From contig NZ_NCJH01000013.1 of assembly GCF_002278925.1 (NCBI RefSeq), positions 29,472 to 93,471 of the forward strand: 64,000 nucleotides of DNA, written 5' to 3'. The DNA is from Polaromonas sp. 39-63-25 (GTDB lineage: Bacteria > Pseudomonadota > Gammaproteobacteria > Burkholderiales > Burkholderiaceae_C). Of this stretch, positions 17,585 through 40,382 are shown one piece after another (within the stretch, counting starts at the first letter, position 1; each line of letters begins with the position of its first letter). The position numbers and the translations under genes are program-made. The notes under the pieces were generated by a model, which saw only the letters and a list, made by a program, of their open reading frames with translations, did not search any database and was not told the DNA's origin.

Positions 17585-17591
17585 GCGTGTC

Positions 17592-20500: not shown

Positions 20501-21659
20501 GCTGTTGGCGGGACGGCCTGGCCACGCCGTACTCCATGAAAATTTTCTTCTCGAAAAGATCCCGCAGGAAGGCCGGTTCGCGCATCAGCTGCGACACCAG
20601 GTCGGCCTGCTCTTCCTTGGCTTCACCATTCAGCGCCGCCGCGACATCAAGGGCGCCGGCCTTTTGCGCCGATTCGCTGCTGTCACCGGTCAGGTAAATG
20701 CCGCGAAAGAAAAACGGCTCATGGTAGGCACTGGGCCGCATGAGTTCGTCCACGTAAACCTGCAGTTGCGCCCGAACCGCATCGATCCGGGAGGGAAGCA
20801 GAAAAAATTTCCCTGTTTCTGCACTGACCGAATCGAGCGCAAAGAGTTCGGCCGAGGTGTCCGAGACCGTTTTCACGACGCTGTCGAGCGCCTCGCCGAC
20901 CCAGCCGTCCTGGTAGGTGGTGGACAGATCGTAAGGCGATGACCAACCGAGAATGCCGGCGCGCATGGGCTCGGGCAGCGCCCTGGCGAAGGGCGAAAAC
21001 CCTTCGATCTGGTCGCACCCGGAAACCACGACGTAGACGGCAAACCGCATGGCAAAGCGGTTTTGCGCGAGCCAGAGCCGGCGGTGCGCGAGGCGGGCCA
21101 GCTTGCCGAGTTCCAGCAGGGCATCCGGGCTGTTGTCCAGCAGCAAGGCGGCCGGCACAGTGATGACGACGGAGTCAAAGGGTCTCTGGGGCCGGTATTT
21201 ACGGCACAGGCCGAGGAACTCGTCCCACGGTTTTTCCGTTGCATCTTCGTCGTCGGGCGAGCCCAGGTAGGCGCCCTGCATGTCAATGACAATGCCCTTG
21301 TCAAAGAAGTGCCAGGCGATGCCCTGGGTTGCAGCGGCGGAAGCGGCCTCGGAGCTGAGCGCACTGGCCACGCCCGACTGTTCAATGGGCAGTTGCCGGT
21401 TGTCCATGCCTTCATTGAGTACCAGCACCCAGGGAATGCTGTAGCGCTCGCTCCGGGAAGCAATATTGCCCTCGATCAGTTCAACCGCCTGCCTGAAGGA
21501 GTTGCGCAGCGAGTCAAACCGGAGCTTGACGATCTTGGGATCGCTGCCGGGCTTGGCAGCCGATCGGCGCACGGCGAAATACAGTACCAGGCCCAGAACA
21601 ACCAGCACCAGGACAATCAGAACGCCCAGAGACGCCAGAAACAGGTTGTCTTTCAGCAT
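17592..21659 (-). CDS. tssM: type VI secretion membrane complex protein TssM (IcmF)
   Basis: A 1355-residue inner-membrane protein of the T6SS TssJLM complex, with a large periplasmic domain. A first membrane segment lies at about residues 6-30 (FLASLGVLIVLVLVVLGLVL), then a cytoplasmic domain, and another at about 420-450 (WAALVVLGGWSVGLLVATV). The C-terminal periplasmic region ends with the family-typical FPLSFTPDNPRVAPQEVRARVYLRL. The cytoplasmic domain lacks a P-loop: the place where G-x-x-G-x-G-K-T is expected reads VLVLNEGMDNRQL. The start MLKDNLF at 21659 is used; upstream sequence overlaps tssL. Confidence 0.93.
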   Translation of the reverse strand: MLKDNLFLASLGVLIVLVLVVLGLVLYFAVRRSAAKPGSDPKIVKLRFDSLRNSFRQAVELIEGNIASRSERYSIPWVLVLNEGMDNRQLPIEQSGVASALSSEAASAAATQGIAWHFFDKGIVIDMQGAYLGSPDDEDATEKPWDEFLGLCRKYRPQRPFDSVVITVPAALLLDNSPDALLELGKLARLAHRRLWLAQNRFAMRFAVYVVVSGCDQIEGFSPFARALPEPMRAGILGWSSPYDLSTTYQDGWVGEALDSVVKTVSDTSAELFALDSVSAETGKFFLLPSRIDAVRAQLQVYVDELMRPSAYHEPFFFRGIYLTGDSSESAQKAGALDVAAALNGEAKEEQADLVSQLMREPAFLRDLFEKKIFMEYGVARPSRQQLARPVLSRAARWAALVVLGGWSVGLLVATVQLSKRNPELARALSQIEADANYRARASERGEPIASDWYRAKTLSLLAAIEKLGTDKAWTFFMPGSWEVFDNLDDRVAARIEREFGEIAINTLRRELYARAADMTGVSQDASTSELIIGGECAAPAGFAAISGTPHRFSLAVEDLPEFAAMLQYLTAVERLDQAIVAMVRLQKPNQNEANDLRLLVKYTLGAELPGNMSQSIRFFRGSDIPGSLSPAAISVMHIQQAVRCSLDRGMNALDRRLFVNNDLLVSERQLVAQGARLFATDARIGGYTQTVGGYKEILRAIKEQEGLLATGKGGWMRLPDLNLGSAYDAALMRITQSRRLLGPEASDQVRQHAVTEFQKFRTEFEALLGAEGQAGVVWQEKDARFALSADRLALRDALTGLLAQPFMTPPSDREIPEIVAQSILVWDSTRLDQALALSEAHKRFMGEGLVKFPPATRPSVAAFVNFQFARLVGDHAVEALSISSRTDPGAVADAVAFDASRSRLVKVQGLLTELGAKGKADNLRGLISQDAVTRLRQVDDSLTQSDLYAIRGRDFSYWLGDRGPLLQAFGVPDGPSLLQTLALQFSRAETLGRQSEIYLASLDSAAAESQLARRWQAINRELERYRLKNPNSSLVVYEQFLVTTGADLDRANCSEKLAGKAPGGRPADYFAEKHLQVYSALLKRCNELRVGEQQEQWAAFSGNFNRLLAGRQPFAVPGAKDAPDADFDDVGQILKNSERMSRTLKETSAASRGALVGLPARRFADQFDRVRAFMAPLYPVEEGAVAGYDMAVEFRTNQSAEIEGNKVIDWTLEVGSQTLKLRDARRPLRWEPGTPITLTLRLAKDSPVNAVNDPQQPHMSADGKTVSYRFTDTWSLVRMIQRQREPDAAGRADGRAQLLRMEFPLSFTPDNPRVAPQEVRARVYLRLALSPVGKRTPVFWPGVFPTRAPEFGGQ

Positions 21660-21693
21660 CGTCGGCCCCCCGGTTGCAGTGGAGAAGGCGCTT

Positions 21694-22452
21694 TCATTGG
21701 CTGCCCCCCGTTCCGGTCGTGCTGCCGGTCTGCAGGACCTGACGCACCGGCCAGGACTGCCACAGCCAGAGCATTTCAGAGATGGCCAGCAATCCCACAA
21801 CACCGAGAAGGAAGACCACCGTCCAACGGCTCAATGTCGGCATCTTTTTCGGCGCAATATGCGACAGCGTGCTGGCATAAGCGCGTTCGGACAGGACACG
21901 GTCACGGCCGGAGAGATCGGGCCGCCGCTGGTAGACAAACTGGAACAGCTCCTCCCGGTAGCCTGCAAAACGATCCGTGTCGGCTGCTCCGCGGTATTTG
22001 CCCTGGAAACCCAGCGCCAGCGCCGAGAGGTAAAGGCTGGCGATCGGCCGCAAGGACGGCTCGCGGCTGGACAGCAGTTCTTCTATGCGTTCGAAAATCC
22101 GCTCGCCGGCAATGCTGGTTCTGAAGAGGGAGGCTTCCAGCAAATGGGTGGTCCAGCAATCGCGACCTATCCAGGCCGTGTTGAGCAGGATTTCATCGGC
22201 CAGCGCGGCCTTGAGGTAACGCGCGTCGGCAATGCTCTCAAGTTCAAACCGGTTGCCCTCCCGTTTGGACTCCAGCGTCTGCAGCTCGATAAGGTTTTCC
22301 AGATGTTTGCTGACATGCTGGGCAGCCAGGTCCGGGTCGGTTTCGCGCATCTCGATCGCGCGGGTCTGGGCCTTCGAAACTTCGTCGAAGAAAGAGCGGA
22401 ACTGCGTGATCAGGTGGTTGTCGTCCTGTTTGTCTCGGGTTTGGCGTGCCAT
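21694..22452 (-). CDS. tssL: type VI secretion protein TssL (DotU family)
   Basis: A 252-residue DotU-type component of the membrane complex. The cytoplasmic hook-shaped domain has ARYLKAALADEILLNTAWIG and LYLSALALGFQGKYRG, signatures of TssL/IcmH. A single C-terminal membrane helix (WTVVFLLGVVGLLAISEMLWLW, about 213-234) is followed by a short glycine/threonine-rich tail. No OmpA-like peptidoglycan-binding domain is fused. It lies between tssK (24-base gap) and tssM (34-base gap). Confidence 0.93.
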   Translation of the reverse strand: MARQTRDKQDDNHLITQFRSFFDEVSKAQTRAIEMRETDPDLAAQHVSKHLENLIELQTLESKREGNRFELESIADARYLKAALADEILLNTAWIGRDCWTTHLLEASLFRTSIAGERIFERIEELLSSREPSLRPIASLYLSALALGFQGKYRGAADTDRFAGYREELFQFVYQRRPDLSGRDRVLSERAYASTLSHIAPKKMPTLSRWTVVFLLGVVGLLAISEMLWLWQSWPVRQVLQTGSTTGTGGSQ

Positions 22453-22476: not shown

Positions 22477-23805
22477 TCAGCCCTTGACGAAGAGAACCAT
22501 TTCCTGCGGGCGTTGCGCAGACGCACTTTCCGTGGAGTTGCTGACAATCAGGGGCTCATTGGCCAGGGTCAGGGCGGCGCTGGCCTGAATGGAAAACAGG
22601 GTGTATCCCGAGCTGGCCCGCACGCCGAGCTCCTGGGCAACTTCAATGTGCGAGCGCATGGCACCGAGTACGCGTCTTTCCCTGAGCGACGCATAAGCCG
22701 ACTGGGACCCGACAATGGCGCCGTTCATCCAGGCGACCAGGTCTTTTTCGGGTTGCCCGCGCAAGCCCACCACCAGCTGCTTGTCGACCCATTCCGGCAG
22801 CAGGTTGATTTCAAACGCACCATGGCGGTACTCGAACTTGTGTTCCCGGTATTCCTGGCTGATTTCCATCAGGGAGTCCTGCAAAGCCTCGAGCACCGGG
22901 TTGAGCACCGCCAGCGGATCGGCATGATCGTACTCGGGCGGTACCGGCGGCAGGGCCCCGGGCTTGAGCATGCTCAGAGGCCCGAGCAGGGCGCATAGCG
23001 CCAGATACAGGGGATAAGGGTGCAGACTGGGTGTGCGCAAGACGGCTTCGACTTGCGGCAGGCCAGTCATCAGGTTGCGAAGCCGCTCCCTTTGCTCCAG
23101 GTAGGCCAGCCTGTCCTCGGTTTTGGAGGACGGCACAGCCGTCTGCTTCGCCACAAATGCAGCCTTGCCGCGCAATTGGCCGACGAAGGCAGACACCCGC
23201 TCCCACAAGACGCCGTCTTTCGGCATCTCGATCAGCGCGGGCAGGGTCTCGCCCATCTTGATGAGTTCGTTGTCCTTGAACACCGTGCCCAGGCGCAGCC
23301 AGGTATAAATTCCCGAGGGCACATCACCTGCAACCAGCGAGAGGTTGGGCAGCAACCGCGGAAGGTCGGCAGGCAGTGCCTCCGACACCTCGTCTTCCAC
23401 CTGGCCCATGGCAACCGAACGGAACCGCGAGGGCGAGCCTTTGTCGCGCATGCTTTTGGTCAGCGGCAGGACCAGGTAGAAATCCAGAGGGGCGTTGCCC
23501 AGCGCTTCAGCAAACGGGGCCAGTTTGAGCTCGAGCGTGCCATGCTGGGCATTGTCTGCCGAGAAGCTGACCGAGGTACCGTCCGGCATGATCGCTTCCA
23601 GCTGCTGGACCCTGACAATGCCGGCCGGCAACAACCCCATGTCGATTTTCAGGCTGCGCACACCCCATGAAAAAGGTGCGGCCAGCAATGTGTGCAAGGC
23701 CACCAGGGAGTCGAGCCGGGCCGATGCCTGCTGGAAATGCTGCGGCGACAACAGCATGCCCTCATGCCACTGGATGCGCTCTTCAACCGGGAGGGACTTA
23801 ACCAT
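22477..23805 (-). CDS. tssK: type VI secretion baseplate protein TssK
   Basis: A 442-residue baseplate subunit that links the wedge to the membrane complex. The N-terminal IQWHEGMLLSPQHFQQ is the family signature, and the C-terminal half has PEWVDKQLVVGLRG and the MRSHIEVAQELGVRASSGYTLFSI region. The ATG at 23805 is preferred because GAGGGAG sits six bases upstream; an ATG at 23820 adds five residues and also has a possible ribosome site. The gene follows tssJ closely. Confidence 0.93.
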   Translation of the reverse strand: MVKSLPVEERIQWHEGMLLSPQHFQQASARLDSLVALHTLLAAPFSWGVRSLKIDMGLLPAGIVRVQQLEAIMPDGTSVSFSADNAQHGTLELKLAPFAEALGNAPLDFYLVLPLTKSMRDKGSPSRFRSVAMGQVEDEVSEALPADLPRLLPNLSLVAGDVPSGIYTWLRLGTVFKDNELIKMGETLPALIEMPKDGVLWERVSAFVGQLRGKAAFVAKQTAVPSSKTEDRLAYLEQRERLRNLMTGLPQVEAVLRTPSLHPYPLYLALCALLGPLSMLKPGALPPVPPEYDHADPLAVLNPVLEALQDSLMEISQEYREHKFEYRHGAFEINLLPEWVDKQLVVGLRGQPEKDLVAWMNGAIVGSQSAYASLRERRVLGAMRSHIEVAQELGVRASSGYTLFSIQASAALTLANEPLIVSNSTESASAQRPQEMVLFVKG

Positions 23806-23883
23806 GGATGGCTCCCTCATCTGTCGTGCGCCCTTCCGGGATACGGAGCGTCTTGGCGTTTTTCTTCATAGGAACTCCTCGGC

Positions 23884-24372
23884 TTATTCGGTCTTCAGGG
23901 CTGACACGGAAAATGAGCGCGCCCCCAGCTGCACGAGTATTTCCCCCTGCATCTGGTCCACCCGTACGCGATGCTCTCCAGGCGTCAGATAATCCGCAAA
24001 AAGCAGGACGCCAACCACCCGAGACGCCCCGAAGGTGTCGGCGGGAAGTTTGAGGGTCTGTCCGGGCACGATCTCCATGCTGCGGTAGCTCAACCCCTCC
24101 GGAAAGGTCTTGGCCAGATCGGCGCGGGACGAAAACCATTTGGATGCCGGCAATGTCGACACCATGCCCAGCGTTGCCTCGTCCCGAAGCAGCACCACGT
24201 CCAGCGCAACCGGGGTATTCAGGTTGGCGCCCTCGCTCGCGATGACAGTCATGCCGTTCCAGTCCAGGCGGCTTCCTTTCGCCGTGAAGAACCCGGCGAC
24301 ACTGCTGATGGTGCTGCAGGCCGACAAGCTCCCCAGGACAAGAATAATCAGGCAAATTTTTAGAAATTTCAT
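23884..24372 (-). CDS. tssJ: type VI secretion lipoprotein TssJ
   Basis: A 162-residue outer-membrane lipoprotein of the T6SS membrane complex. Signal peptide with lipobox LSAC (Cys19). The mature domain begins with a short helix and then the two-layer beta sandwich: LDWNGMTVIASEGANLNTPVALDVVLLRD, a W-F-S-S-R-A-D-L motif and the closing VGVLLFADYLTPGEHRVRVDQ. The ATG at 24372 starts the signal peptide. It is separated by only 7 bases from the DAACS transporter gene upstream, which ties that metabolic gene to the T6SS transcript. Confidence 0.88.
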   Translation of the reverse strand: MKFLKICLIILVLGSLSACSTISSVAGFFTAKGSRLDWNGMTVIASEGANLNTPVALDVVLLRDEATLGMVSTLPASKWFSSRADLAKTFPEGLSYRSMEIVPGQTLKLPADTFGASRVVGVLLFADYLTPGEHRVRVDQMQGEILVQLGARSFSVSALKTE

Positions 24373-24379
24373 TTTTTTC

Positions 24380-25864
24380 TTAACCAGGGCTGTTCCCTGC
24401 AACGGCCATGGGCCCCGATGCATACGGCTGAGGCAGGCCCGCGCCCGTCTTTCGCATCCCGACGCCGATACCCGCAATCGTAATCAATAACGCCGCCAGC
24501 AAGACACAAGCCAGCGCCATTGCAACACTGGCCCGGGAAAAAACAAAGCGGACAGGCTCCAGCGCGCGCAGGTTCGATGATGCGGCGGTTTCAATACGCT
24601 CCGAAGGCAGTCCGCGGGAAACCAGCACGATCAGGACACAGGCAAACAGCAGCGTGAGCAGGTTGCGCGGGCCTTCGCAGACCAGGTCGATCGCCAGGAA
24701 AAGTGCCAGTGCAGCTTCAATGGGAAGATTCAGTATGGACAGCACCACACCGGCGAACCCTACCGCGGCCAGGCTGTTGTTGCCCGCCGATGCAAACGCC
24801 GCCAGCGAGGCACCGACGCAAATCAGCAGGAACTCTTGAGGCGTGATGGAGCGCCCATAGATATTGGCCACAAACACTGCCAGCAGCGAGAAATAAAGTG
24901 CTGCACCGGAACGCATGAACACCGACGCAACCGGAATCACCAGTTCGACAATGCCCCGGCTGAACCCCAACCGGGAACTCATGGCCTCTATCGTGTCGGG
25001 AATGCTTGCCGTGGTGCTGGCGGAGGTCAGGCTGATGAGAACAGGCGCCTTCAGCGCCGACATCACACTGGCTGGAGAAAGCCCTGACTTTTTCCAGATC
25101 AACAGAATGGCCGCTCCAGAGAGGGAAAAAGCGAACAGATAGAAGGAGCCCAGAAAACTGCCCATCGCATGAAGCGTCCGGGCGTCGGTCCTGGCCACAA
25201 AATAGGCTGCCATGCCAAAAGCCAGCACCGGAATAAAAACGTTGACGCGGGAAATGATCAACTCAAGGGTGCGATAAATCGCCTCGAAAATGCCCATCAG
25301 TGCATTGGTTTGCGGCCTGAGCAGCGCAGCAAAAGCCAGCCCGAACAGGATGGCGCACAGCAGGATGGCCAGCGACTGGCCTTCCGCAAGCACCCGGAAA
25401 AAGTTGTCCGGCACCGCAGCCATCCACAAATCGGGCGCCGCTGTTACTTCGGAAGCCCCGGCACCATACAGGGAAACTTCGGCGTTTGCGGCATCTCCGC
25501 CGGCGTTTTGCACCAGGGCACCGAGGTATTCACGGTCGGCAGAGCTCAGATCCTGACCGGTGCCGGCGAGCACGCCGAACATTGCCCCCAGCACTGCACA
25601 CAGCACCACCAGGCCTACCGCCAGACCCACAATCATCAATGCGCGTTTTCCAGGTTGCGGCAAGGCCAATGTCTGACGCAGGCCGAAAAAAGTGGCCACA
25701 ACCAGCAACGGAAGCGCAGCCATATTGACCAGGGCCAGGTAGATCTGCCCAAGAACAAAGGCCTCGCCACCCACGGCAGGTGCAAGCCAGCCCAGCAGTG
25801 CTCCCCCCATCACGCAAAGCAGGAGAGCCAAGGGACTGTTCGACAGGCGCTTCAGGAGTCCCAT
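24380..25864 (-). CDS. divergent DAACS (dicarboxylate/amino acid:cation symporter) family transporter, paralogue 1
   Basis: A 494-residue inner-membrane protein with the SLC1/GltP-like fold: eight or so hydrophobic segments, a helical-hairpin serine-rich motif LTSASTTASIPDT (about 335-348), and the TM8 stretch AIDLVCEGPRNLL. The usual NMDG sodium/substrate motif of TM7 is replaced (VASVFMRSGAALYF), so coupling or substrate may differ from glutamate/aspartate carriers. There is a C-terminal extension with another hydrophobic segment. The ATG at 25864 overlaps the racemase gene by 13 bases. It is in the middle of the T6SS operon. Confidence 0.85.
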   Translation of the reverse strand: MGLLKRLSNSPLALLLCVMGGALLGWLAPAVGGEAFVLGQIYLALVNMAALPLLVVATFFGLRQTLALPQPGKRALMIVGLAVGLVVLCAVLGAMFGVLAGTGQDLSSADREYLGALVQNAGGDAANAEVSLYGAGASEVTAAPDLWMAAVPDNFFRVLAEGQSLAILLCAILFGLAFAALLRPQTNALMGIFEAIYRTLELIISRVNVFIPVLAFGMAAYFVARTDARTLHAMGSFLGSFYLFAFSLSGAAILLIWKKSGLSPASVMSALKAPVLISLTSASTTASIPDTIEAMSSRLGFSRGIVELVIPVASVFMRSGAALYFSLLAVFVANIYGRSITPQEFLLICVGASLAAFASAGNNSLAAVGFAGVVLSILNLPIEAALALFLAIDLVCEGPRNLLTLLFACVLIVLVSRGLPSERIETAASSNLRALEPVRFVFSRASVAMALACVLLAALLITIAGIGVGMRKTGAGLPQPYASGPMAVAGNSPG

Positions 25865-26568
25865 CCCGGCCTGTTCCAGCCTCGTGCGAGGGCAAAAGCA
25901 ACACTGGCTCGCGCCAGTTCCAGTGAGCTGTCGATCAACCCCAAGCCCGATACATCTGCATACCTGGAAGCAATGGGAATTTCGGTGCAGCCCATGATGA
26001 TGGTGGTCGCACCTTGCCGCGCGGCCTCCCGACAGGCTTCGGTCAGATGTTGCCCGCCGGCAGCCAGGTCGCCAGCCTTGATTTCGCGTATGCAACCGTC
26101 CACATTGTTCTGGCCATCCTCGGGATCCGGGAGCATGAAGTCGATGCCGCGCGACCGCAGTTCCCGCTGGTAGAAGCCTGAGGCCAAAGCGCCCCGTGTG
26201 GCAAAAACGGCCACCCGCGAGACACCCGTGGGGGAAATTGCCTCGACGCAGGCCTTGGCGATATGCAGCAACGGCACCTTGCTGCTCGAACTCATTTCAT
26301 CAAACCAGTGATGCGACGAATTGCAGGGAATGGCGATGACGCCAACGGCAGCCTGGTTAAGTACTTCGATGCCCGCCAGCAGCTGCGGCAAGGGATCCCG
26401 CCCATGCCCCAAAATAGCGCTGGAGCGGTCATGGGTATGCGGCAAGCTCGCCACGATGACCGGCAGATGGTCCTGATCGCGCGCCGCAGGGGTGAGCTTG
26501 ACCAGCTTGTCGAGAAAGTCGACCGTTGCTGATGGCCCCATTCCTCCAAATACGCCGATTCGGGACAT
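25852..26568 (-). CDS. aspartate/glutamate racemase family protein
   Basis: A 238-residue cofactor-independent racemase of the RacD/YgeA type. N-terminal IGVFGGMGPSATVDFLDKL is the family signature. Both catalytic cysteines are present: Cys82 in IPCNSSH and Cys194 in MGCTEIP. Expected reaction: interconversion of L- and D-aspartate or glutamate, although members of this family differ in substrate (hydantoin, maleate, other amino acids). No signal peptide, so it acts in the cytoplasm unless secreted by another route. It overlaps the downstream transporter gene by 13 bases and follows the second transporter by 9 bases. Confidence 0.9.
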   Translation of the reverse strand: MSRIGVFGGMGPSATVDFLDKLVKLTPAARDQDHLPVIVASLPHTHDRSSAILGHGRDPLPQLLAGIEVLNQAAVGVIAIPCNSSHHWFDEMSSSSKVPLLHIAKACVEAISPTGVSRVAVFATRGALASGFYQRELRSRGIDFMLPDPEDGQNNVDGCIREIKAGDLAAGGQHLTEACREAARQGATTIIMGCTEIPIASRYADVSGLGLIDSSLELARASVAFALARGWNRPGWDS

Positions 26569-26577
26569 CCTGGCCTC

Positions 26578-27855
26578 CTATATTTTCAGGGGCCTGGGGC
26601 AGATCAGGGACACCGCGGCGTTGTTGCCAATCACCAGCACCAGGGTCCTGAGCATGTCGCAAATCGGATCCACCGCCAGGAACAGGATGAAAGCCGCCTC
26701 AAAAGGAAGACCGAGGTAGCTGCATGTCAGTCCGACCAGCGACACCGTGAGCAAGCCCGTCATGCCCGCCGACGCAAAGCCGGCGAGTATCGATGCCGAG
26801 AGGATGACGATCAACTCTGTCGGACCAATCGGTTTTGCATACAACTGGGCAATGAACACGGTAGCGGCCACGTAATAGATCACCGGCCCGATACGCAGCA
26901 GCGACACGCTCAGGGGCACCATCAGCTCGACCCTTGAACGCGCAAAACCCAGGCGGTCCGCCAGACTTTCGATCATGATGGGCATGCATGTCGCACTGCT
27001 GCGGGTGGCCAACGCGAGGGCAAAGGGGCCCCTCAAGGCATTGAGAGTCTGGCCCAGCGTCGAGTTGGAACGCTTCCAGATAATGATTGTTGCAATGACC
27101 AGGGCCAGCACGGAAGCAACAAAAAACGCCAGGACAAACTGGGCCATGGCCTGCAAGGGGCCGATGCCGGTTTTGGCCATCTGCGCAGCGCTCATGCAGA
27201 AAAGAACGATGGGCAGCGGATAGTTCAACCAGCGCATCAGGGTCTGGCAGGAGTGGTAAATGGTTTCCAGGGACTGGGTCAGCCCGTCGGAAACCCGCGA
27301 CGGAACCTGACCCACCGCAAAACCGAAAAGCAACGCGAAGACGAGTGCCTTGAGCGTGTCGCCGCTGGCCAGCGCGGCAAAAATATTCGATGGCACCAAG
27401 CTGACCAGTACTTCGGTGAAGCTCACCGACTTGACCGGCGCATCGACGCCCCCAAGGCTCATGACCGTGTCGCTGGAATTGAGATCGTTGCCGACAATCT
27501 TTCCGAAAGTCTGCATGGTTTCACTTGACAGGTTGGAACCCGGTTTCATCACCAGCAGTGTTGTCGCCCCCAACAACGCGACAACAATAGAAAACACGAC
27601 GAACACCACCGCCACGCGAGCCATCAGCCCGCCGGCCCCACCCTCGCGGAACAGGCGCTGCAAACTGAAAATCACGGCCGACACCATGAAGGGCAAGGCA
27701 ATCATCTTGAGGAGATCGACATACACATCGCCCACAAAACCGAGCTTCAGCCCGACGGCAGGCATGTACATGCCCAGCGCGAAACCCGCCGACAGGCTGG
27801 CCACCACCACCCAGGGGTTGAGCGCAAATGCATAGAGTTTTTTCAGGTTGATCAT
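26578..27855 (-). CDS. divergent DAACS family transporter, paralogue 2
   Basis: A 425-residue SLC1-type membrane protein, related to but clearly distinct from the one two genes downstream. It has a serine-rich hairpin ATRSSATCMPIM, the TM7 region VPLSVSLLRIGPVIYY in place of the usual NMDG motif, and TM8 AVDPICDMLRTLVLVIGN, which keeps the aspartate and the arginine-threonine pair expected to hold an acidic side chain. Likely takes up an amino acid or dicarboxylate. The ATG at 27855 is used; a GTG one codon upstream is also possible. Confidence 0.85.
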   Translation of the reverse strand: MINLKKLYAFALNPWVVVASLSAGFALGMYMPAVGLKLGFVGDVYVDLLKMIALPFMVSAVIFSLQRLFREGGAGGLMARVAVVFVVFSIVVALLGATTLLVMKPGSNLSSETMQTFGKIVGNDLNSSDTVMSLGGVDAPVKSVSFTEVLVSLVPSNIFAALASGDTLKALVFALLFGFAVGQVPSRVSDGLTQSLETIYHSCQTLMRWLNYPLPIVLFCMSAAQMAKTGIGPLQAMAQFVLAFFVASVLALVIATIIIWKRSNSTLGQTLNALRGPFALALATRSSATCMPIMIESLADRLGFARSRVELMVPLSVSLLRIGPVIYYVAATVFIAQLYAKPIGPTELIVILSASILAGFASAGMTGLLTVSLVGLTCSYLGLPFEAAFILFLAVDPICDMLRTLVLVIGNNAAVSLICPRPLKI

Positions 27856-27875
27856 CACACGCCTTAGTTAATCGA

Positions 27876-28844
27876 TTACCGGTCCAGGGCCTTCAGCACC
27901 TTGTCAATCGTCAGCTTTTCGGTGCTCTCTGCCAAAAACTGGTTCACAAAGGCCAGGAGCGTCGGATCCTGAATGCCCACGGCAATGCCAAGGGTGTCTT
28001 CGAGGTCCTTGAATGTGACCGTGCGCAGCGTCAAGGACGCCGTCGGGTCACTTTTCAAAATCCGCTTGATCTCAAACTCATCACGGTAGGCCGCCATGAT
28101 CTGGCCTTTTTCAAGCGCCTTGAGGACAGCCTCCCAGGTCGGAAATTCGCGAAGCTCCGAAAGCGGAAAGTTTTTGCTGGCGTAGTCTGAGAAAGACGAT
28201 TTCGCAATGACCCCGATGGATCCCTTGAATTCGCGAACAACAACGGGGAGGGGCCGCTCCCGAGCCAGTTCGGCAAACTTCACCCGGTTCAGGATGAAGG
28301 CGTGGTTCAGGCGGATATAAGGCTCGGTGAAGCTGATCATCTGGGCCCGCGCCAGTGTCCGCGACAGCTTGCTGATGCCGAGGTCGGCCTCCTGGCGGGC
28401 AACCACATCAACCACCTCATTGAAAGTGCGGGCGCTGCGGTCAAACCTGACGGTGACCTTGAGCTCCTTCGCAATCGCTTTGGCCAGGTCCACCTCCAGA
28501 CCGACCAGCTCACCCTTCTTCATGTAAAAGAACGGGGGCGTGTCCACGCCGAGCATCGCAACGACGAGTTCTCCCCGATTGACGATGCGGGCAATGCTGG
28601 GCGCCAGCAGTCGGCCATCGGCCACCTTGACCAGGCTCGGAGCAGGCAACGGAGAGGGTACCAGCGCCACCTCCGCCAATGGAGCGGCAGGGGCCGGCGC
28701 GCTGGCGGTAGGGGGCGCCGCGAAGGCTGCACCGGCACAACCCCAGAGCCCGAGAACAAACAAGCAGGCTTTCCACCAGGAAGTTGACTGGCTGTGCAAG
28801 GGCTGTCCGGACTGTGTTTTTGACATCATCAAATCCTGATTCAT
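27876..28844 (-). CDS. periplasmic amino-acid-binding protein (solute-binding family 3)
   Basis: A 322-residue exported protein. The signal peptide (ACLFVLGLWGCAGAAFA) is followed by a long Pro/Ala-rich linker (about 45-70) and then a family 3 (PBPe) domain starting RIVNRGELVVAMLGVDTPPFFYMKKGELVGLEVDLAKAIA, with DLGISKLSRTLARAQMISFTEPY in the hinge region. No ABC permease or ATPase is nearby, so it may work with the adjacent symporters or as a sensor. The start at 28844 overlaps the stop of the upstream small membrane protein (ATGA). Confidence 0.85.
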   Translation of the reverse strand: MNQDLMMSKTQSGQPLHSQSTSWWKACLFVLGLWGCAGAAFAAPPTASAPAPAAPLAEVALVPSPLPAPSLVKVADGRLLAPSIARIVNRGELVVAMLGVDTPPFFYMKKGELVGLEVDLAKAIAKELKVTVRFDRSARTFNEVVDVVARQEADLGISKLSRTLARAQMISFTEPYIRLNHAFILNRVKFAELARERPLPVVVREFKGSIGVIAKSSFSDYASKNFPLSELREFPTWEAVLKALEKGQIMAAYRDEFEIKRILKSDPTASLTLRTVTFKDLEDTLGIAVGIQDPTLLAFVNQFLAESTEKLTIDKVLKALDR

Positions 28845-29056
28845 GGCTTGGCAACGGAGGGCGAAGGCGCGTCCCCGACGGGTGCTGATGAAGGCGGGGT
28901 TACGGTTAACACCGCTGCGGGCGCAGTTCCTTCTGCGGGTGAAGAAATCTTCTTGCCGATTTCCACCCCGAGCAAGAACAGGAGCACACAAAGCAGCAAC
29001 AGGCAAAGCCCGGCAATGGTCATCATCCGGGTCGTCAGCGACAAAGTGTATTGCAT
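28841..29056 (-). CDS. small single-span membrane protein
   Basis: A 71-residue protein with one strong membrane helix (MMTIAGLCLLLLCVLLFLLGVEIG, about 11-34) and an Ala/Pro/Ser-rich periplasmic tail. No family recognised. Its stop overlaps the start of the solute-binding protein gene, and it begins 19 bases after the PAAR-like gene, so it belongs to the same transcript. The Pro-rich tail resembles the linker after the signal peptide of the next gene, which hints at a membrane scaffold for that binding protein. Confidence 0.7.
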   Translation of the reverse strand: MQYTLSLTTRMMTIAGLCLLLLCVLLFLLGVEIGKKISSPAEGTAPAAVLTVTPPSSAPVGDAPSPSVAKP

Positions 29057-29075: not shown

Positions 29076-29462
29076 TCAAGGAACCATCACGGTGAACTGC
29101 CCCGGGACAAGAATCTGGATGACGCCACCCCACTGGCACATCAGCTTGGAAGAGTTCTGCAAGGCAGGCATCCCGCCCAGCAATACCGTCGCAGAACCGG
29201 GCATCCAGGGTGCGGCAGTCATGGGAATGCAGGGCATGGGCGTCAACACGCCGAGAGCGGCAGCCGTAGCGGCAGCCACCATCGGGTTGGAGGGGCAATT
29301 GCACATGCCAAAGGGCAGCACATTGACAAACGGAACATGGTCCATGATGTTCGCGGCCGGTCCACCCGTGAGCACACGGTTCGCGGGAAGCACGGTCAGC
29401 ACGCTGGGGGCCACGCCAAAACTGCACTGAAGGGTTGCGCCCACGGCGACCTGAATGCCCAT
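29076..29462 (-). CDS. PAAR-like DUF4280 spike-tip protein
   Basis: A 128-residue protein of the DUF4280 group that replaces or complements canonical PAAR caps on VgrG. The conserved features are the GATLQCSFG start, ANRVLTGGPAANIMDHVPFVNVLPFGMC, the MVAAATAAALGVLTPMPCIP block, WMPGSATVLLGGMPALQNSSKLMC and the final GGVIQILVPGQ. The cysteines and the single histidine are candidates for a metal site at the tip. It lies two bases downstream of the MORN gene, next to vgrG, as expected for a spike module. Confidence 0.85.
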   Translation of the reverse strand: MGIQVAVGATLQCSFGVAPSVLTVLPANRVLTGGPAANIMDHVPFVNVLPFGMCNCPSNPMVAAATAAALGVLTPMPCIPMTAAPWMPGSATVLLGGMPALQNSSKLMCQWGGVIQILVPGQFTVMVP

Positions 29463-29464: not shown

Positions 29465-30205
29465 TCAGCCTTTCACCAGTTTTTCGAGACGTTTCATGAG
29501 GCTGGTTTTGGCGTCGTCACGCAACTCCACCCCTTTACTGTCGAAACGCCTGGGTTTGCCAACCGGTTTTCCTGCGCGGTACAACAGCACCTCCATCACC
29601 TGCCCGTCCGGCCAGTACCGCGTCAGCGGCCCCTCAAGCAGGTTGTTTCTGTAGCTGGCTTTCTGCACCACCGCACCGTCGCGGTCGTAGTCCAGCGTTT
29701 CCCCTTCCAGCAGGCCCTTGCGGTACTGCGACCGGCGGACCACCTCACCCTCGTTCATGAACAAGACCTCGCCTTCCACCTCACCTCTGAAAAAATTCTG
29801 TTTCATGGCGACCTCTCCGGCTTCCGAATAGGAGACCGACTCGCCATGAAGACTCCCATTCGAAAACCGCTGCTCGGACAACAGGCGCCCTTTCACGAAA
29901 ACGCGGGTCAAGCCATGCTGCAAGCCGCGGCTGTAATTCGCCTCCTGCACCGGATTGCCATGCTCATCAAAAAGCCTGAGGACACCATGGAGCACACCCG
30001 CATCGTATTGGGCGCTGGCAAGCAGCTTGCCGTCTGGGCCAAAAGAGCTCATTTCGCCGTGAAGCACACCGTCCATCAAACCGGCGCGGTTGGACAGCCC
30101 GCCGGCGTCATTGAACTGCTCGCGCTCGACAAAGCCGCGCGGCATCTCGCCAGCGGGCGTGTCCGCGGGTACCGCAGCAGTGGCAGAGGTTTTTTGGGCC
30201 GTCAT
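29465..30205 (-). CDS. MORN-repeat protein of the T6SS spike module
   Basis: A 246-residue protein made mostly of about seven MORN-type repeats of the YwqK kind: G-x-x-x-G-x-x-x-x-Y/F-x-x-x-G, for example GVLHGEMSSFGPDGKLLASAQY, GVLHGVLRLFDEHGN, GLQHGLTRVFVKGR, GLLEGETLDYDRDG. No signal peptide; C-terminus basic. Between vgrG and the PAAR-like gene with gaps of one and two bases. Repeat proteins in this position are plausible adaptors or chaperones for loading cargo on VgrG; this role is inference. Confidence 0.8.
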   Translation of the reverse strand: MTAQKTSATAAVPADTPAGEMPRGFVEREQFNDAGGLSNRAGLMDGVLHGEMSSFGPDGKLLASAQYDAGVLHGVLRLFDEHGNPVQEANYSRGLQHGLTRVFVKGRLLSEQRFSNGSLHGESVSYSEAGEVAMKQNFFRGEVEGEVLFMNEGEVVRRSQYRKGLLEGETLDYDRDGAVVQKASYRNNLLEGPLTRYWPDGQVMEVLLYRAGKPVGKPRRFDSKGVELRDDAKTSLMKRLEKLVKG

Positions 30206-30206: not shown

Positions 30207-32198
30207 TCAGTTGATCTTTACCAGGCCACCCTTGAGGGTCAGCATCCCGCCGCCGTCCACCGTTTGCATGGCTGACGCCTTGTTGGTCACCATCGCACCC
30301 TCGTTGTCCAGCGTGGTCCCGGCCTTGTTCTTTAATCCGGTGCCAGCCTGGTTCGTCAGGTCCAGTCCGGCCTTGTTGGTCAGGGACGTGCCGGCCTCGT
30401 TGGTCAGCGCTGTGCCTGCCTTGCTGGTCAGGGACGTGCCGGCCTCGGCAGCGAAAGTGGTTCCAGACTTGATCGTGATGGAGCCTGTCACATCAATCAC
30501 CAGGTTGCCCGTAACCTTCAGTTCGTAGTTCCCGGTGACGGCCTGACTGAAATCAGCCTTGTTGGTATGGGTCTCATTGCCGGTGATCGTGAGCTCGCGT
30601 GTGCCTTTGACCTTGTGCACTTCCTTGCCCGTCTGGACATCAACAGTGCGGTCACCCTTTTCCAGCGTGTGTGTCTCGGAACCCTTGACCAGCTTGGTGC
30701 TCAGGTCGTTCTCGATCTCGATCTTCATGTCTTTCTGCGCATGGAAATAGAACTCTTCCGAATCCTTTTTGTCTTCCATCCGCATCTCATTGCCGGCGGT
30801 GCCCTGCTTGGAAGCGCGGGATTTGATGGTGCTCTGGGTTTGCATGCCCGGCAGCGTCACCGGCGTGGTGTTCTCGGCGTTGTAGACGCAGCCAGTGACA
30901 ATAGGCCGGTCGGGATCGCCATCGACATAACTGACCACCACTTCCTGTCCAATCCGCGGCAGGAACAGGCTCCCCCAGCCGAGCCCGGCCCAGGACTGGG
31001 AAACGCGCACCCAGCACGAACTGTTTTCGTCCTTGACGCCAATCCGGTCCCAATGGAACTGCACCTTGATCCGCCCATGCGTGTCGGTCCATATTTCCTC
31101 GCCGCTGGGTCCCACCACCAGAGCCGTCTGGCTGCCCGAAACCCGCGGAAGCGGCGACAGGCGCGGCGGACGGAAGGGCACGGTGGCGGCAAACGCCTCA
31201 AAGCTGTTGCTGTACTGCGCGTTGCTGGCCGTATGCGTCACTGCCCGCAGCACCAGCGTCGTGTTCAAGGCTGTTCTCGAATGACCCGAGAGCGTGAATT
31301 TCCTGCCTGCGGAAAGCGGGTAGCAATAACTCGTGCCGCGGCATACCGCGCCGTCGACCTGGCTGGCTTCCGAGCGGACCTTGGCGCGCTGCGTGCCATC
31401 GGCCAGCACTGCATGTTTGCCTGGAAATTCGAACTGCTTTCCCTTGCCCGTCGCCCCCGCGGATTCGGTCAGCAATGCGGTGCTGGGCGTGAGGTAGTTG
31501 TAGTCACTGTATTCAAATTTCTGCGCCACCAGGCGGCTTTCGTACTCCAGCTGGTTGACGGTATCCATCATGCGGCGCCCACCAGGGTCGGGGAAGTAAC
31601 GCAAAGCGGCTCCATCAACACAATCGATGTGGGCGGCCGAACTGTCGCCCAGCACCATGGTGTGCCCGCCATCGGTGAAGGTGAAGAAATAGAAGATGCC
31701 TTCCTCCTCCATCAACCGGGAGATGAACTCCAGTGCAGTCTCGTCGTACTGGACGCAGTATTCGCGGCTTCCATAAGTCCCCGTCAGCTGCGCATCAAAA
31801 GTCACGCCAAACTCGCCCAGGACCGCCTTGATGATGTCGGCCGCCGTCTTGTTCTGGTAGATGGCCCTGTCTCTGCTGAGTGTCAGGAGCCAGAGGCTGG
31901 GCACCAACTCCGCCGAATAGGACGAGAAAGAGCGGTCACCGCCCGCGTGCATGAAACGCGACACGATGCCGTTGAAAAACCGGGCAGGTCCAGCCGGCAA
32001 GGCGAGCTTGACCGTGACCGAAGCGCCCACAATCAGGGCCGGATCCAGGCCTGTGTCGGACGAACGCATCGCCAGCGAAAACCTGAAAGGCTGCGAGATG
32101 GCCTCCACGCCCTGGAAGGAGTCGAGCAACAACACATCTGCGCCGAACGGTGTGGTCACCGTCAACGCGGAGTTTGTCTGTTTGAAGCCAGTCCGCAT
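30207..32198 (-). CDS. vgrG: type VI secretion spike protein VgrG (TssI)
   Basis: A 663-residue trimeric spike. Gp27-like N-terminal part with FRFSLAMRSSD and YQNKTAADIIKAVLGEFGV, then QYDETALEFISRLMEEEGIFYFF, then the gp5-like OB fold with GPSGEEIWTDTHGRIKVQFHWDR and SWAGLGWGSLFLPRIGQEVVVSYVDGDPDRPIVTG. After about residue 540 comes a beta-helix needle, ending in short AGT-x-LTN-x repeats (about 600-650). No enzymatic C-terminal extension, so cargo is likely carried by the neighbours. Confidence 0.96.
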   Translation of the reverse strand: MRTGFKQTNSALTVTTPFGADVLLLDSFQGVEAISQPFRFSLAMRSSDTGLDPALIVGASVTVKLALPAGPARFFNGIVSRFMHAGGDRSFSSYSAELVPSLWLLTLSRDRAIYQNKTAADIIKAVLGEFGVTFDAQLTGTYGSREYCVQYDETALEFISRLMEEEGIFYFFTFTDGGHTMVLGDSSAAHIDCVDGAALRYFPDPGGRRMMDTVNQLEYESRLVAQKFEYSDYNYLTPSTALLTESAGATGKGKQFEFPGKHAVLADGTQRAKVRSEASQVDGAVCRGTSYCYPLSAGRKFTLSGHSRTALNTTLVLRAVTHTASNAQYSNSFEAFAATVPFRPPRLSPLPRVSGSQTALVVGPSGEEIWTDTHGRIKVQFHWDRIGVKDENSSCWVRVSQSWAGLGWGSLFLPRIGQEVVVSYVDGDPDRPIVTGCVYNAENTTPVTLPGMQTQSTIKSRASKQGTAGNEMRMEDKKDSEEFYFHAQKDMKIEIENDLSTKLVKGSETHTLEKGDRTVDVQTGKEVHKVKGTRELTITGNETHTNKADFSQAVTGNYELKVTGNLVIDVTGSITIKSGTTFAAEAGTSLTSKAGTALTNEAGTSLTNKAGLDLTNQAGTGLKNKAGTTLDNEGAMVTNKASAMQTVDGGGMLTLKGGLVKIN
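30250..30450 (-). repeat. in-gene tandem repeat coding the VgrG needle
   Basis: About eight degenerate units encoding A-G-T-x-L-T-(N/S)-(K/E/Q) in a row, for example TSLTSKAGTALTNEAG and TSLTNKAGLDLTNQAG. It reads as the regular rungs of the VgrG beta-helix tip. Copy number may vary between strains. Confidence 0.7.
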
Positions 32199-32204: not shown

Positions 32205-34928
32205 CTATACCTGTTTCGGCGGGCCGAAAGTAAAGGAAAAATCGTCACGTGCATCCACGCCCATATGCACCTCGTCAAAGGCGTCGGACATGGAAATCCG
32301 CTCCAGTACCTGGCGTGAAAGCTCAGGCAGAACGGCATGCGACAGGATGTGGTCAACGTTACGCGCACCACTGTCGACTTCCGTACACCGGGCCGTGATG
32401 GTTTGCGCCACGGCGTCGTCCCAGGTGAACTCGGCTTTGTGGTTGCGGGAGAAGCGCTGGGCCAGCTTTCCCAGCTTGAGGCTCACAATGGACCGTATCT
32501 GCTCGTCGCCAAGCGGGTAATAGGGAACAATCGCCAGTCGCCCGAGAAAAGCCGGCGAAAACTGTTGCATCAATACCGGCCGCAGGCGCTCGATCAGGAC
32601 TTCCGGATCCGGCCGTCGCCCACCTTCGCAGGCATCGGTGATGACATCCTGGGCGGCATTGGACGTCAGCAGAATCAGCGTGTTCTTGAAATCGATCTGG
32701 ACACCTTCGCCATCTTCCATGACGCCTTTGTCGAAAACCTGGAAAAAGAGCTCCAGCACGTCGGGATGCGCCTTTTCCATTTCGTCAAGCAAGACCACGC
32801 TGTAAGGCCGGCGCCGGACAGCTTCTGTGAGGACGCCGCCACGACCGTAGCCGACATAGCCCGGTGGCGCCCCCTTGAGGCTGGACACGGTGTGGGCCTC
32901 CTGGAATTCGGACATGTTGACGGTCACCATGTTGCGGTCTCCGCCATAAATCATGTCGGCCAGTGCAAACGCAGTCTCGGTCTTGCCTACGCCGCTGGGG
33001 CCGACCAGCAGGAAGACCCCGACCGGCTTGCCCGGGTCATCCAGGTCAGCACGGGAAGTCCGGACGCGTCGCGCAATCGCATCCAGCGCCTGGTCCTGCC
33101 CAACCACGCGCTCGGCCAGTTTTTCCTTGAGGTTGAGGACGGTATGCAACTCGTCGGCCAGCATCTTGCCGACCGGAATGCCGGTCCAGCCGGAAATCAC
33201 GGAAGCAACAACGCCTGAGTCAACACACACAGGAATCATGGGCTCGTCGCTCTGGATCGCATCCAGTCCCTTCTCGAGCCGGTTCAGGGACGCAGACATG
33301 TCTTCGCTGTCTTCGCCTTCCAGCTGGCTGCCGTCCTCCCCCAATCCTTCGGCGATGCGCTTGCGCAATGCCACAATTTCGGCGACCGCACTTTTTTCCT
33401 CTTCAAGCTTTTCCTTCAGGCGGCGCCAGCGTTGCCTGAGGCCTTCGAGTTCCAGAGACAGCGCGGCAATCGCGTGCGCATGGTCGCGCCCGGTTGCAGA
33501 TTCATGGCGGTAGATCCGCAGCTGGTTTTCCGCATTGGATATCTCGCGCACCACCGATTCGATTTCCGGCGGCAGTCCGTTCTGCCCAATGGCCACACGC
33601 GCGCACGCCGTATCCAGCACGCTGATGGCCTTGTCGGGAAGCTGGCGCCCCGAGATATAACGGTGCGACAGCTTGACGGCGTCCCTGACTGCATCGTCGA
33701 TGATCTCGACGCCGTGATGCTTTTCCAGCGTTTGGACCATGCCGCGCAGCATGTCAATGGCGACCTCCTCGGTAGGCTCGTCAACCTTGACCACCTGGAA
33801 GCGTCGCGCCAGGGCCGGGTCGCGCTCGACATATTTTTTGTACTCGGCCCAGGTGGTGGCCGCGATCGTGCGCAGCTCACCACGTGCCAGCGCAGGCTTG
33901 AGAAGATTGGCAGCGTCGCCCTGGCCTTCCGCCCCGCCGGCGCCAATCAGCTGGTGCGCCTCGTCGATGAACAGCACGATGGGCACCAGGGAGGCCTTGA
34001 CTTCGGCAATAACGGATTTCAAGCGGTTCTCGAACTCGCCCTTGACGCCTGCTCCGGCTTGCAGCAAGGCCAGGTCCAGCGAGCGCACAGATACCTTTTG
34101 CAGGGCAGGAGGAACATCGCCCTGCACGATGCGCTGCGCAAAACCTTCCACCACTGCGGTTTTGCCGACGCCGGCCTCACCGGTCAGAATGGGATTGTTT
34201 TGCCGCCGGCGCAACAAGACATCAATGATCTGGCGAATCTCGGCATCGCGCCCACGGATGGGATCAATCAGGCCCTGCCTGGCCTGCTCCGTGATGTCGA
34301 CGGTGTATTGGTCCAGCGAAGGGTTGGATGACGCGCCACGACGCATGGTGGGCATTTGCGGGGAAGACGCTTCCGACACACCCGGTCCGGCTGCCGGGCC
34401 CTGCGCCTGCGACATGGCTGCCGGTTTCGCCGAGCGCACGGCACCACCGGCGTCTTCCGCCGAGTTGGTCAACAAATCGGCCAAATTCTTGCGCAGGCTC
34501 TCGCGCGGAATTTGCAGCAAGCCTGGCGCTGACTCCAGCAGAGCGCCGCGCAGGCTGTCGACTTCCAGCAACGCCAGTATCAAGGTTCCGGAGCGAACCT
34601 GCTGCTCGCCGAGCAACATGGAACTGAGCAACCACGCCTCCTGAAGCAACGGCGCCAGATGCGGCGACAGGGCCGGTGTGCGGCCGTTCCCCCGCTTGAA
34701 CCTGTCCATCGCGTCCTGCAGCTGGGCCAGGATGACGTCCATCTTGATGTCGTACTCCGGGAATATCAGGCAGACATCCGGCGCTTCGGTCTCCAGCAGC
34801 TTGAATAACAAATGCTCGACATCCACGTTGTAGTGGGTTTGCTGGACACACAATTCCGCTGCCTTTTCGAGCGCGCGTTTGCACTCGGGATTGAGCTTGC
34901 TCAGCAGGGTACGAATGTCAATTTCCAT
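32205..34928 (-). CDS. tssH: type VI secretion ATPase TssH (ClpV1)
   Basis: A 907-residue AAA+ unfoldase that disassembles the contracted TssBC sheath. An N-domain (about 1-160) is followed by a linker with Met/Pro-rich sequence, AAA1 with Walker A GEAGVGKT (about residue 248) and FIDEAH, a coiled middle domain (about 430-540) and AAA2 with GPSGVGKT (about residue 646) and LLDEMEKAHPDV. The C-terminus has the ClpB-D2 type helical region. The gene follows tssG by 17 bases and precedes vgrG by 6 bases. Confidence 0.97.
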   Translation of the reverse strand: MEIDIRTLLSKLNPECKRALEKAAELCVQQTHYNVDVEHLLFKLLETEAPDVCLIFPEYDIKMDVILAQLQDAMDRFKRGNGRTPALSPHLAPLLQEAWLLSSMLLGEQQVRSGTLILALLEVDSLRGALLESAPGLLQIPRESLRKNLADLLTNSAEDAGGAVRSAKPAAMSQAQGPAAGPGVSEASSPQMPTMRRGASSNPSLDQYTVDITEQARQGLIDPIRGRDAEIRQIIDVLLRRRQNNPILTGEAGVGKTAVVEGFAQRIVQGDVPPALQKVSVRSLDLALLQAGAGVKGEFENRLKSVIAEVKASLVPIVLFIDEAHQLIGAGGAEGQGDAANLLKPALARGELRTIAATTWAEYKKYVERDPALARRFQVVKVDEPTEEVAIDMLRGMVQTLEKHHGVEIIDDAVRDAVKLSHRYISGRQLPDKAISVLDTACARVAIGQNGLPPEIESVVREISNAENQLRIYRHESATGRDHAHAIAALSLELEGLRQRWRRLKEKLEEEKSAVAEIVALRKRIAEGLGEDGSQLEGEDSEDMSASLNRLEKGLDAIQSDEPMIPVCVDSGVVASVISGWTGIPVGKMLADELHTVLNLKEKLAERVVGQDQALDAIARRVRTSRADLDDPGKPVGVFLLVGPSGVGKTETAFALADMIYGGDRNMVTVNMSEFQEAHTVSSLKGAPPGYVGYGRGGVLTEAVRRRPYSVVLLDEMEKAHPDVLELFFQVFDKGVMEDGEGVQIDFKNTLILLTSNAAQDVITDACEGGRRPDPEVLIERLRPVLMQQFSPAFLGRLAIVPYYPLGDEQIRSIVSLKLGKLAQRFSRNHKAEFTWDDAVAQTITARCTEVDSGARNVDHILSHAVLPELSRQVLERISMSDAFDEVHMGVDARDDFSFTFGPPKQV

Positions 34929-34945
34929 CTTGAGTGCCGTTTCGT

Positions 34946-37722: not shown

Positions 37723-37724
37723 GC

Positions 37725-38186: not shown

Positions 38187-38240
38187 GATGGCGTGCTTCT
38201 CTTAACGAACCGGCTGACATCGGTGAAAGAACACAGATCG

Positions 38241-38732: not shown

Positions 38733-38766
38733 GAGTCACTCCGTAAATAACCAACCAAGAGATGGA

Positions 38767-38784
38767 GGCCGGTCCGAACCGGCC
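38767..38784 (-). promoter_or_regulatory. stem-loop in the tssC-hcp gap
   Basis: GGCCGGT / ACCGGCC, a perfect 7-bp GC-rich stem with a 4-base loop, in the 93-base gap. No T-run follows in the direction of transcription, so it is not a classical terminator. It is better placed for mRNA processing or 3'-end protection of the tssBC message, or for a cut that frees a stable hcp message. Confidence 0.5.
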
Positions 38785-38825
38785 AGCCCCCTGTTCAAAT
38801 CAGATGCGCTGGATGCTCCGCAGCA

Positions 38826-40325: not shown

Positions 40326-40382
40326 ATCAATCACCGTTCCAAAAAATGAGGGGTGTGCCGAGGCACAGACCGGGATGGTTGC

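Follow-up and report, generated by a model that had tools for sequence, protein, structure and literature searches.

Why would the operon of a type VI secretion system (T6SS) carry genes for amino-acid uptake and racemisation? A 64,000-nucleotide stretch of Polaromonas sp. 39-63-25 (the window, by which we mean the whole stretch analysed) raises this question, as its single T6SS locus encodes a solute-binding protein (SBP), two SLC1-type carriers (S1 and S2) and an Asp/Glu racemase. A first-pass annotation had suggested that this T6SS may be coupled to the acquisition or racemisation of acidic amino acids. Its observation is confirmed, as Pfam matches, coordinates and flanking genes bear out the four genes, their order, their strand and the T6SS genes on both sides; its interpretation as a whole is partly supported. 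We read the cassette as an amino-acid transport unit recruited into the T6SS operon, with an SBP-dependent, sodium-uncoupled carrier of the SLC1 type that transports an acidic amino acid and with S2 dedicated to the T6SS, and we put the probability of this reading at roughly 0.4. The cassette lies on the T6SS strand between a gene pair for a PAAR-like and a small membrane protein and tssJ, in the following order:

27876..28844, minus strand: SBP, a family-3 amino-acid binding protein (Pfam SBP_bac_3, 8.2e-20)
26578..27858, minus strand: S1 (DAACS1), an SLC1-type carrier (Pfam SDF, 3.3e-59)
25852..26568, minus strand: racemase of the cofactor-independent Asp/Glu type (Pfam Asp_Glu_race, 7.5e-38)
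24380..25864, minus strand: S2 (DAACS2), a second SLC1 paralogue (Pfam SDF, 1.4e-47)

Pairing of the binding protein with S1

Related loci were found with S1 as the query, a sampling that under-counts cassettes without S1 such as that of Ramlibacter albus described below. With the source genome included in each count, S1 was matched in 10 of 250 family genomes (nine genera), in 5 of 399 genomes of the order and, by an alignment search, in 4 of 369 genomes of the class; two genomes of the same genus among the 250 family genomes drawn gave no match. A scan of the whole collection (84,980 species genomes) contributed the best 80 of 111 relatives, and these come from Polaromonas, Ramlibacter, Variovorax, Paraburkholderia, Achromobacter, Derxia, Duganella, Rugamonas, Massilia and others, including Bordetella hinzii and two Chromatiaceae. 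Of the named relatives among the matches listed, a Polaromonas assembly is the closest, at 96% identity in S1. Many loci are from metagenome assemblies, and the record labels of L060 (Akkermansia) and L119 (Bordetella parapertussis) are apparently wrong. All counts below cover 87 non-duplicate loci (G214, G047, G016, G170, G240, G134 and G306 were excluded as duplicates of named loci); G014, whose S1 is in two pieces, was used neither for the S1 tree nor in the searches of genomes with stand-alone units.

Within the DNA stretches examined, 68 of the 87 loci are T6SS-linked, among them L079, classed so by the tssJ on its short contig, and 19 are stand-alone units. An SBP match stands directly upstream of S1 in all 87, at a gap of -4 to 115 bp and with a short, weak match in L097; this count describes an SBP before every S1 seen and does not imply an S1 for every SBP. 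In L182 (8020-8211; G653), a Limnohabitans metagenome contig that is apparently the same as L097, the cassette SBP matches a short stretch only and is perhaps broken. By gene content, SBP and S1 are a constant pair, both beside T6SS genes and in places without a detected T6SS. This pairing may predate the T6SS cassette and extend beyond it, since an SBP gene directly precedes the SLC1 gene in all three distant members from the class (L175-L177), whose short flanks gave no match to the racemase, tssJ, PAAR or vgrG.

In placing an SBP gene beside an elevator-type secondary carrier, the cassette resembles the TRAP, TTT and TAXI-GltS systems. S1 and S2 are the only PF00375 matches in the source genome, which made a control from that genome impossible, and ten other SLC1 proteins from seven genomes with stand-alone units were used instead; for none of the ten genes did the cassette-SBP model find a match in the flanks fetched around them. 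No ABC permease or ATPase was found among the operon genes scanned, a scan that did not extend to the rest of the genome.

The pair also occurs apart from the secretion system. TssK, present in one copy in the source genome, was unmatched in 12 of the 18 genomes with stand-alone units, many of them metagenome assemblies of unstated completeness. The core unit therefore seems independent of the T6SS, and of the coupling proposed by the first-pass annotation it is the conservation of the cassette within one T6SS type that stands, whereas the occurrence of SBP-S1 in genomes with no TssK match speaks against it. Three stand-alone units from Polaromonas group with seven T6SS-linked ones in a supported set of ten within the S1 tree (the finest forks are weakly supported), and TssK was matched in none of the three genomes; these Polaromonas have thus likely lost the T6SS and retained SBP, S1 and the racemase. 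B. hinzii (L120), in which the cassette lies inside a T6SS locus and lacks the racemase, has a very long S1 branch.

Predicted loss of the sodium site in both carriers

Glutamate-transporter-fold carriers are textbook examples of sodium- or proton-coupled transport and function without binding proteins. Carrier sites were mapped on the aspartate transporter 9bgz, using GltPh numbering and what we take to be the residue roles: N310, D312 and D405 as cation ligands and R397 as the arginine that holds the substrate carboxylate. Both proteins carry the SDF domain, and the AlphaFold model of S1, the only one used for a fold search, has GltPh, ASCT2 and GltTk as its best matches in the PDB.

In S1 of the window, N310 is replaced by L, M311 by R322 and D312 by I, and R404, T405 and D401 are kept. 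For S2, counts are based on the T6SS-linked copies only (n = 65, of which 63 are readable; the second carrier of L126 is excluded). None of the 86 readable S1 and none of the 63 readable S2 retains any of N310, D312 and D405; a basic residue (Arg or Lys) occupies position 311 in 86/86 S1 and in 62/63 S2, the remaining one having Pro; and R397 is kept in 86/86 and 60/63 respectively. T398 is present in all 86 S1 and is mostly Asn in S2, and D394 is retained in 62 of the 86 S1. As judged from these residues, both paralogues have replaced N310 and D312, placed a basic residue at M311 and kept the substrate arginine, and both lack the NMDG (N310, D312) and D405 signature of Na+-coupled SLC1/DAACS symporters. 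The general rule that the substrates of DAACS carriers are acidic amino acids, on which the first-pass annotation drew, is consequently not simply transferable to them.

The ten control SLC1 proteins retain N310 (10/10), D312 (9/10), N401 (10/10) and R397 (7/10), with Met or Leu at 311. D405 is kept in five and is Asn in the other five, so that this residue is not diagnostic. The three distant class members were compared by eye; at position 311 two of them carry Arg and one Gln, and R397 is missing in two of the three. A fixed positive charge standing in for sodium is known in other carriers, for example CaiT. S1 shares its fold and the arginine and threonine of the substrate site with GltPh, GltTk and EAAT. 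The 9bgz entry is titled 'ancestral uncoupled aspartate transporter', a title by which uncoupled members of the SLC1 family are possible; 9bgz retains NMDG, however, whereas S1 and S2 lack N310 and D312, their residue at M311 is basic, and S2 has in addition a ninth helix.

S2 as the T6SS-linked component

A hydrophobic segment following transmembrane helix 8, and predicted to form a ninth membrane helix, is present in all 63 uncut T6SS-linked S2 as against one of 87 S1 (L084). The structure model of S2 (mean pLDDT 80) places an additional C-terminal helix at 444-474, with block pLDDT values of 73-82 over 441-470 and lower values beyond.

A second SLC1 gene accompanies S1 in 65 of the 68 T6SS-linked loci, and the other three are truncated by the end of the sequence, inside S1 or the racemase or shortly behind one of them. 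A search for full-length S2 gave no match in the 12 genomes without a TssK match, and three of the 18 genomes with stand-alone units have one, each time beside TssK, one of these copies having an in-frame stop. In the genomes searched, then, full-length, nine-helix S2 is seen only beside T6SS genes, and as far as gene content can tell it is S2, rather than the whole set, that is the T6SS-specific part. L126, which has no TssK match, encodes a second, S2-like SLC1 protein whose fit to the S2 model stops at position 416; this protein retains R397 and carries R at 311, and the ninth helix is missing.

Ramlibacter albus is a natural dissection of the cassette. Its T6SS locus (L180 5782-9304) reads PAAR-small protein-SBP-S2-tssJ-tssK, and a second SBP lies with S1 and the racemase elsewhere (L062 8965-11999), close to what by eye seem to be ribosomal genes.

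The comparison of neighbourhoods in other genomes, for which the first-pass annotation had called, showed the cassette to be conserved in this T6SS type: the whole tssB to tssA order, cassette included, is unchanged in 7 of the 9 other S1-bearing family genomes, so that the arrangement is not due to chance. A close TssK (at least 43% identity) was found in 10 of 250 family genomes, the source genome included, and nine of these ten are also S1-positive; none of 13 further family genomes, with TssK matches at 24-28% identity only, was S1-positive. In G161, L112 and L115 the cassette lies past the end of the T6SS genes and points in the opposite direction. The same annotation had named an orthologous T6SS locus without the cassette as evidence against its proposal, and one exists: G216 has a T6SS of identical order in which the small protein gene adjoins tssJ, forming an empty site. 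G648 has tssJ-K-L-M of the same type, the 20 kb read contain no cassette, and its genome lacks a full-length S2.

G216 also helps to define the limits of the cassette. MORN, PAAR and the small protein were considered as members and rejected, all three being retained in this cassette-free T6SS; the small membrane protein, matches to which occur in G216 and in G161, belongs with the T6SS and not with the cassette.

The racemase as an optional component

The first-pass annotation had noted Cys82 and Cys194 in the racemase. Both are present, and C82, C194, R48 and K164 are invariant in the 23 racemases aligned, drawn from the 53 non-duplicate loci that gave a racemase match; the two cysteines are presumably catalytic, with R48 and K164 serving the roles that we assume for them in the Asp racemase fold. 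Similarity to 1JFL, which we take to be the Pyrococcus horikoshii aspartate racemase, is only moderate and includes these four residues. The window racemase scores over the cut-off of two NCBIfam models, asp_race and the cysteate racemase CuyB (219 bits against a cut-off of 190). A cysteate racemase label was dropped, as 1JFL and 3s7z, a solved 'putative aspartate racemase', also pass the CuyB cut-off. The substrate is probably an aspartate-like acid.

Among the 68 T6SS-linked loci the racemase is present in 43 and missing in 23, two loci being cut too short to tell; all 23 keep SBP, S1 and S2, and they include the Oxalobacteraceae of the tree, Limnohabitans and B. hinzii. It is found in 10 of the 19 stand-alone loci. 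Judged by this distribution, the racemase is a dispensable, optional extra, and racemisation, one of the two functions offered by the first-pass annotation, is unlikely to be central. RacK of the D-lysine system of Acinetobacter baumannii is likewise a racemase with a T6SS link, being tied functionally to T6SS warfare; it differs from the cassette racemase in belonging to a pyridoxal-phosphate-dependent family, and we know of no carrier or binding-protein cassette associated with it.

Organisation of the locus

The T6SS genes, all on the minus strand of the window, run tssB, tssC, hcp, tssE, tssF, tssG, clpV, vgrG, MORN_2 and the DUF4280 PAAR-like gene, followed by the gene for a 71-residue single-helix protein, the cassette, a tssJ-like lipoprotein gene, tssK, tssL, tssM and tssA:

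32205..40952, minus strand: clpV, tssG, tssF, tssE, hcp, tssC and tssB (Pfam)
30207..32198, minus strand: vgrG (Pfam Phage_GPD, 4.8e-89)
29465..30205, minus strand: MORN_2 (YwqK-like) protein (Pfam MORN_2, 7.6e-17)
29076..29462, minus strand: PAAR-like protein (Pfam DUF4280, 2.9e-35)
28841..29056, minus strand: small membrane protein of 71 amino acids with one hydrophobic segment and a Pro/Ala-rich tail (from the translation)
23884..24372, minus strand: tssJ-like lipoprotein directly downstream of S2 (lipobox LSAC, by eye, and position)
22477..23820, minus strand: tssK (Pfam T6SS_VasE, 3.4e-35)
16439..22452, minus strand: tssL, tssM and tssA (Pfam DotU and IcmF-related_N; NCBIfam TssA)

The PAAR-like protein scores 63.8 bits on the T6SS_IglG model, under its 200-bit cut-off, and the tssJ-like lipoprotein matches the SciN/TssJ profile weakly (E 0.078, under cut-off). 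By eye, the SBP has a likely signal peptide and an Ala/Pro-rich linker.

The tight spacing reported by the first-pass annotation held when gaps and overlaps were re-read. The small membrane protein gene and the SBP gene overlap through a common ATGA; 17 bases separate SBP from S1 and 9 bases S1 from the racemase, with AGGAGG ahead of the racemase start; racemase and S2 overlap by 13 bases, and 7 bases separate S2 from tssJ. Promoter and terminator prediction over 16300-33000 gave no signal exceeding the shuffled background. For the corresponding cluster of Paraburkholderia phymatum, T6SS-b, a single operon is predicted in the available text of Hug et al. (2021; PMC8356804).

Elsewhere in the window, a 445-amino-acid open reading frame (ORF) without a Pfam match lies upstream of tssB (41919-43256, minus strand) in a stretch of low GC (0.52-0.58). 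Two long minus-strand ORFs, also without Pfam matches (14675-16330 and 45223-47103), are each overlapped by a plus-strand ORF of similar length, and one member of each pair is probably no real gene. An Rfam scan of the window returned zero matches.

The neighbours of stand-alone units were considered as a clue to the substrate and set aside, since nothing consistent emerged from the four loci scanned. In both Chromatiaceae (Imhoffiella, L103, and Thiocystis, L106) a unit of SBP, S1 and racemase lies downstream of SpoIIE-type genes (an observation placed at L103 4628-8110 and L106 21-1222): L103 has STAS and dCache-SpoIIE neighbours, and in L106 only the end of the SpoIIE gene is in the sequence, with a second SBP_bac_3 gene in between. 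L104 is flanked by genes for cNMP-binding and outer-membrane efflux proteins and L101 by genes for NMT1_3, secretin and pentapeptide proteins.

Relation to published systems

The gene arrangement is not new and is already contained in Hug et al. (2021; PMC8356804), whose available text describes a matching order in P. phymatum T6SS-b (SecReT6 family i4a): vgrG, YwqK/MORN, PAAR-like, hypothetical protein, 'amino acid ABC transporter', SDF, Asp/Glu racemase and SDF. We judge the 'amino acid ABC transporter' of that cluster to be the binding protein by its position. The window has the same set and order (vgrG-MORN-PAAR-small-SBP-SDF-racemase-SDF) inside one T6SS cluster, and the i4a label for its T6SS is carried over on gene order. 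According to the same text, similar clusters exist in 15 other strains, one of which, a Janthinobacterium, lacks the racemase; two such symporters within a T6SS had to the authors' knowledge not been reported before; the symporters may sense plant dicarboxylates; and T6SS-b promoter activity peaks in minimal medium with citrate. That text reports no test of an individual cassette gene, and the accessible part of De Campos et al. (2017; PMC5732942) describes a tssI-b mutant assayed in competition. Where Hug et al. discuss, from an alignment, dicarboxylate sensing and a substrate unlike that of DctA, the loss of the sodium-site residues, the constant SBP-S1 pair, the T6SS-free units, the cassette-free T6SS and the helix confined to S2 do not appear in the text available. 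Our literature search, which covered titles and abstract openings with most subscription journals outside its coverage, returned neither a paper on an SLC1 carrier that depends on an SBP nor one that tested the function of the cassette.

The closest precedent for an SBP paired with an elevator-type glutamate carrier is, from the available text, TAXI-GltS of Bordetella pertussis (PMC12344293), in which a binding-protein gene likewise accompanies an elevator-type secondary transporter for glutamate, with no ABC or TRAP parts. The components differ, in that TAXI-GltS combines a TAXI SBP with a sodium-coupled GltS, and the cassette an SBP_bac_3 protein with an SLC1 carrier.

Possible roles of the cassette

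In the mechanism that we favour, the SBP would act in the periplasm, binding an amino acid of the acidic, aspartate-like kind and passing it to the SLC1 elevator, which would not be coupled to sodium and could work as a uniporter, an exchanger or a proton-linked carrier. Where present, the racemase would interconvert the enantiomers in the cell, making L- and D-forms both usable or exchangeable. S2 would draw on the same SBP while serving the T6SS specifically, an assignment to which its extra helix, next to the TssJLM membrane complex, may contribute. Most likely the unit serves to scavenge acidic amino acids from neighbours lysed by the T6SS, with the operon coupling the carrier to weapon production; this is the simplest use to cover both the shared gene cluster and the survival of the unit without a T6SS. 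The substrate of the cassette and any link to killing are at this stage predictions.

Several observations weigh against this interpretation. A carrier without Na+ coupling could not concentrate its substrate by the sodium gradient, which weakens a role in pure scavenging, and the confidence of the S1 model is modest to fair (mean pLDDT 70). The S2-like carrier of L126 without a ninth helix and the T6SS of G648 without S2 show that S2 and this T6SS type are imperfectly matched. An ABC partner is possible in some loci, given that L053 (4169-6251) has ORFs resembling, by eye, an ABC ATPase and two permeases on the other strand about 2-5 kb upstream of its stand-alone SBP-S1-racemase unit. Unlike TAXI-GltS, for which fusions are known (PMC12344293, as far as accessible), the scanned cassette regions contain no SBP-SLC1 reading-frame fusion; nor do they contain racemase-SLC1 or tssJ-SLC1 fusions. 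The profiles leave the racemase substrate undecided, since the solved 1JFL itself scores 250.9 on the CuyB model, and no D-amino-acid metabolic gene was found among the few neighbours scanned.

The loss of the sodium-site residues in both carriers fits equally well with the strongest rival explanation, in which the SBP and a cation-site-less SLC1 protein form a sensor or transceptor that reads a periplasmic acidic amino acid or dicarboxylate, and the S2 helix beside TssJLM gates assembly or firing of the T6SS. The restriction of full-length S2, with its extra helix, to the neighbourhood of T6SS genes would suit such a role, as would the dicarboxylate-sensing proposal and the top T6SS-b promoter activity on citrate minimal medium in the available text of Hug et al. 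(2021; PMC8356804). Citrate, however, is not a ligand that the racemase would predict, R397 and T398 of S1 are invariant as in a working carrier, and SBP-S1 and the racemase are retained even where TssK is unmatched in the genome; we regard a sensor as unlikely, albeit a serious contender. An insertion with no functional bearing on the T6SS, whereby a transport operon came to rest neutrally between the small protein gene and tssJ, would account for the empty site in G216, for G648 and for the occurrence of the unit at other sites. It accounts poorly for the presence of S2 in 65 of 68 T6SS-linked loci with the other three cut short, for its absence at full length from all 12 genomes without TssK, and for Ramlibacter albus, which keeps SBP and S2 in the T6SS operon though S1 and the racemase are elsewhere, and we consider it improbable. 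We give still less credence to a cassette that produces D-amino acids, be it that the racemase product enters the cell's own peptidoglycan or that S1 and S2 export it, weakening the cell-wall enzymes of incoming T6SS attacks or aiding those of the attacker itself. The catalytic residues of the racemase are intact and A. baumannii offers a precedent in secreted D-lysine and the effector Tse4 (PMC10433429, in the text available), yet 23 T6SS loci keep SBP, S1 and S2 without the racemase, and a binding protein implies capture rather than release.

Returning to the transport unit, a broader proposal, which we advance tentatively, is that SBP and S1 represent a new branch among the secondary transporters that depend on a binding protein, one based on the SLC1 fold, with a tethered basic residue at NMDG replacing sodium. 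On this view the branch exists without a T6SS, and one T6SS type evolved a paralogue of its own, S2, whose extra membrane helix links the secretion machine to the capture or exchange of amino acids. As an arrangement, the locus is a further copy of a published cluster, and its interest lies in the transporter. A conserved SBP-SLC1 pair without the sodium-site residues would add a family to the few secondary transporters that depend on a binding protein, and would offer a natural experiment on the replacement of coupling ions; and the T6SS-linked S2 makes the idea of a wiring between the weapon and the uptake of released amino acids directly testable.

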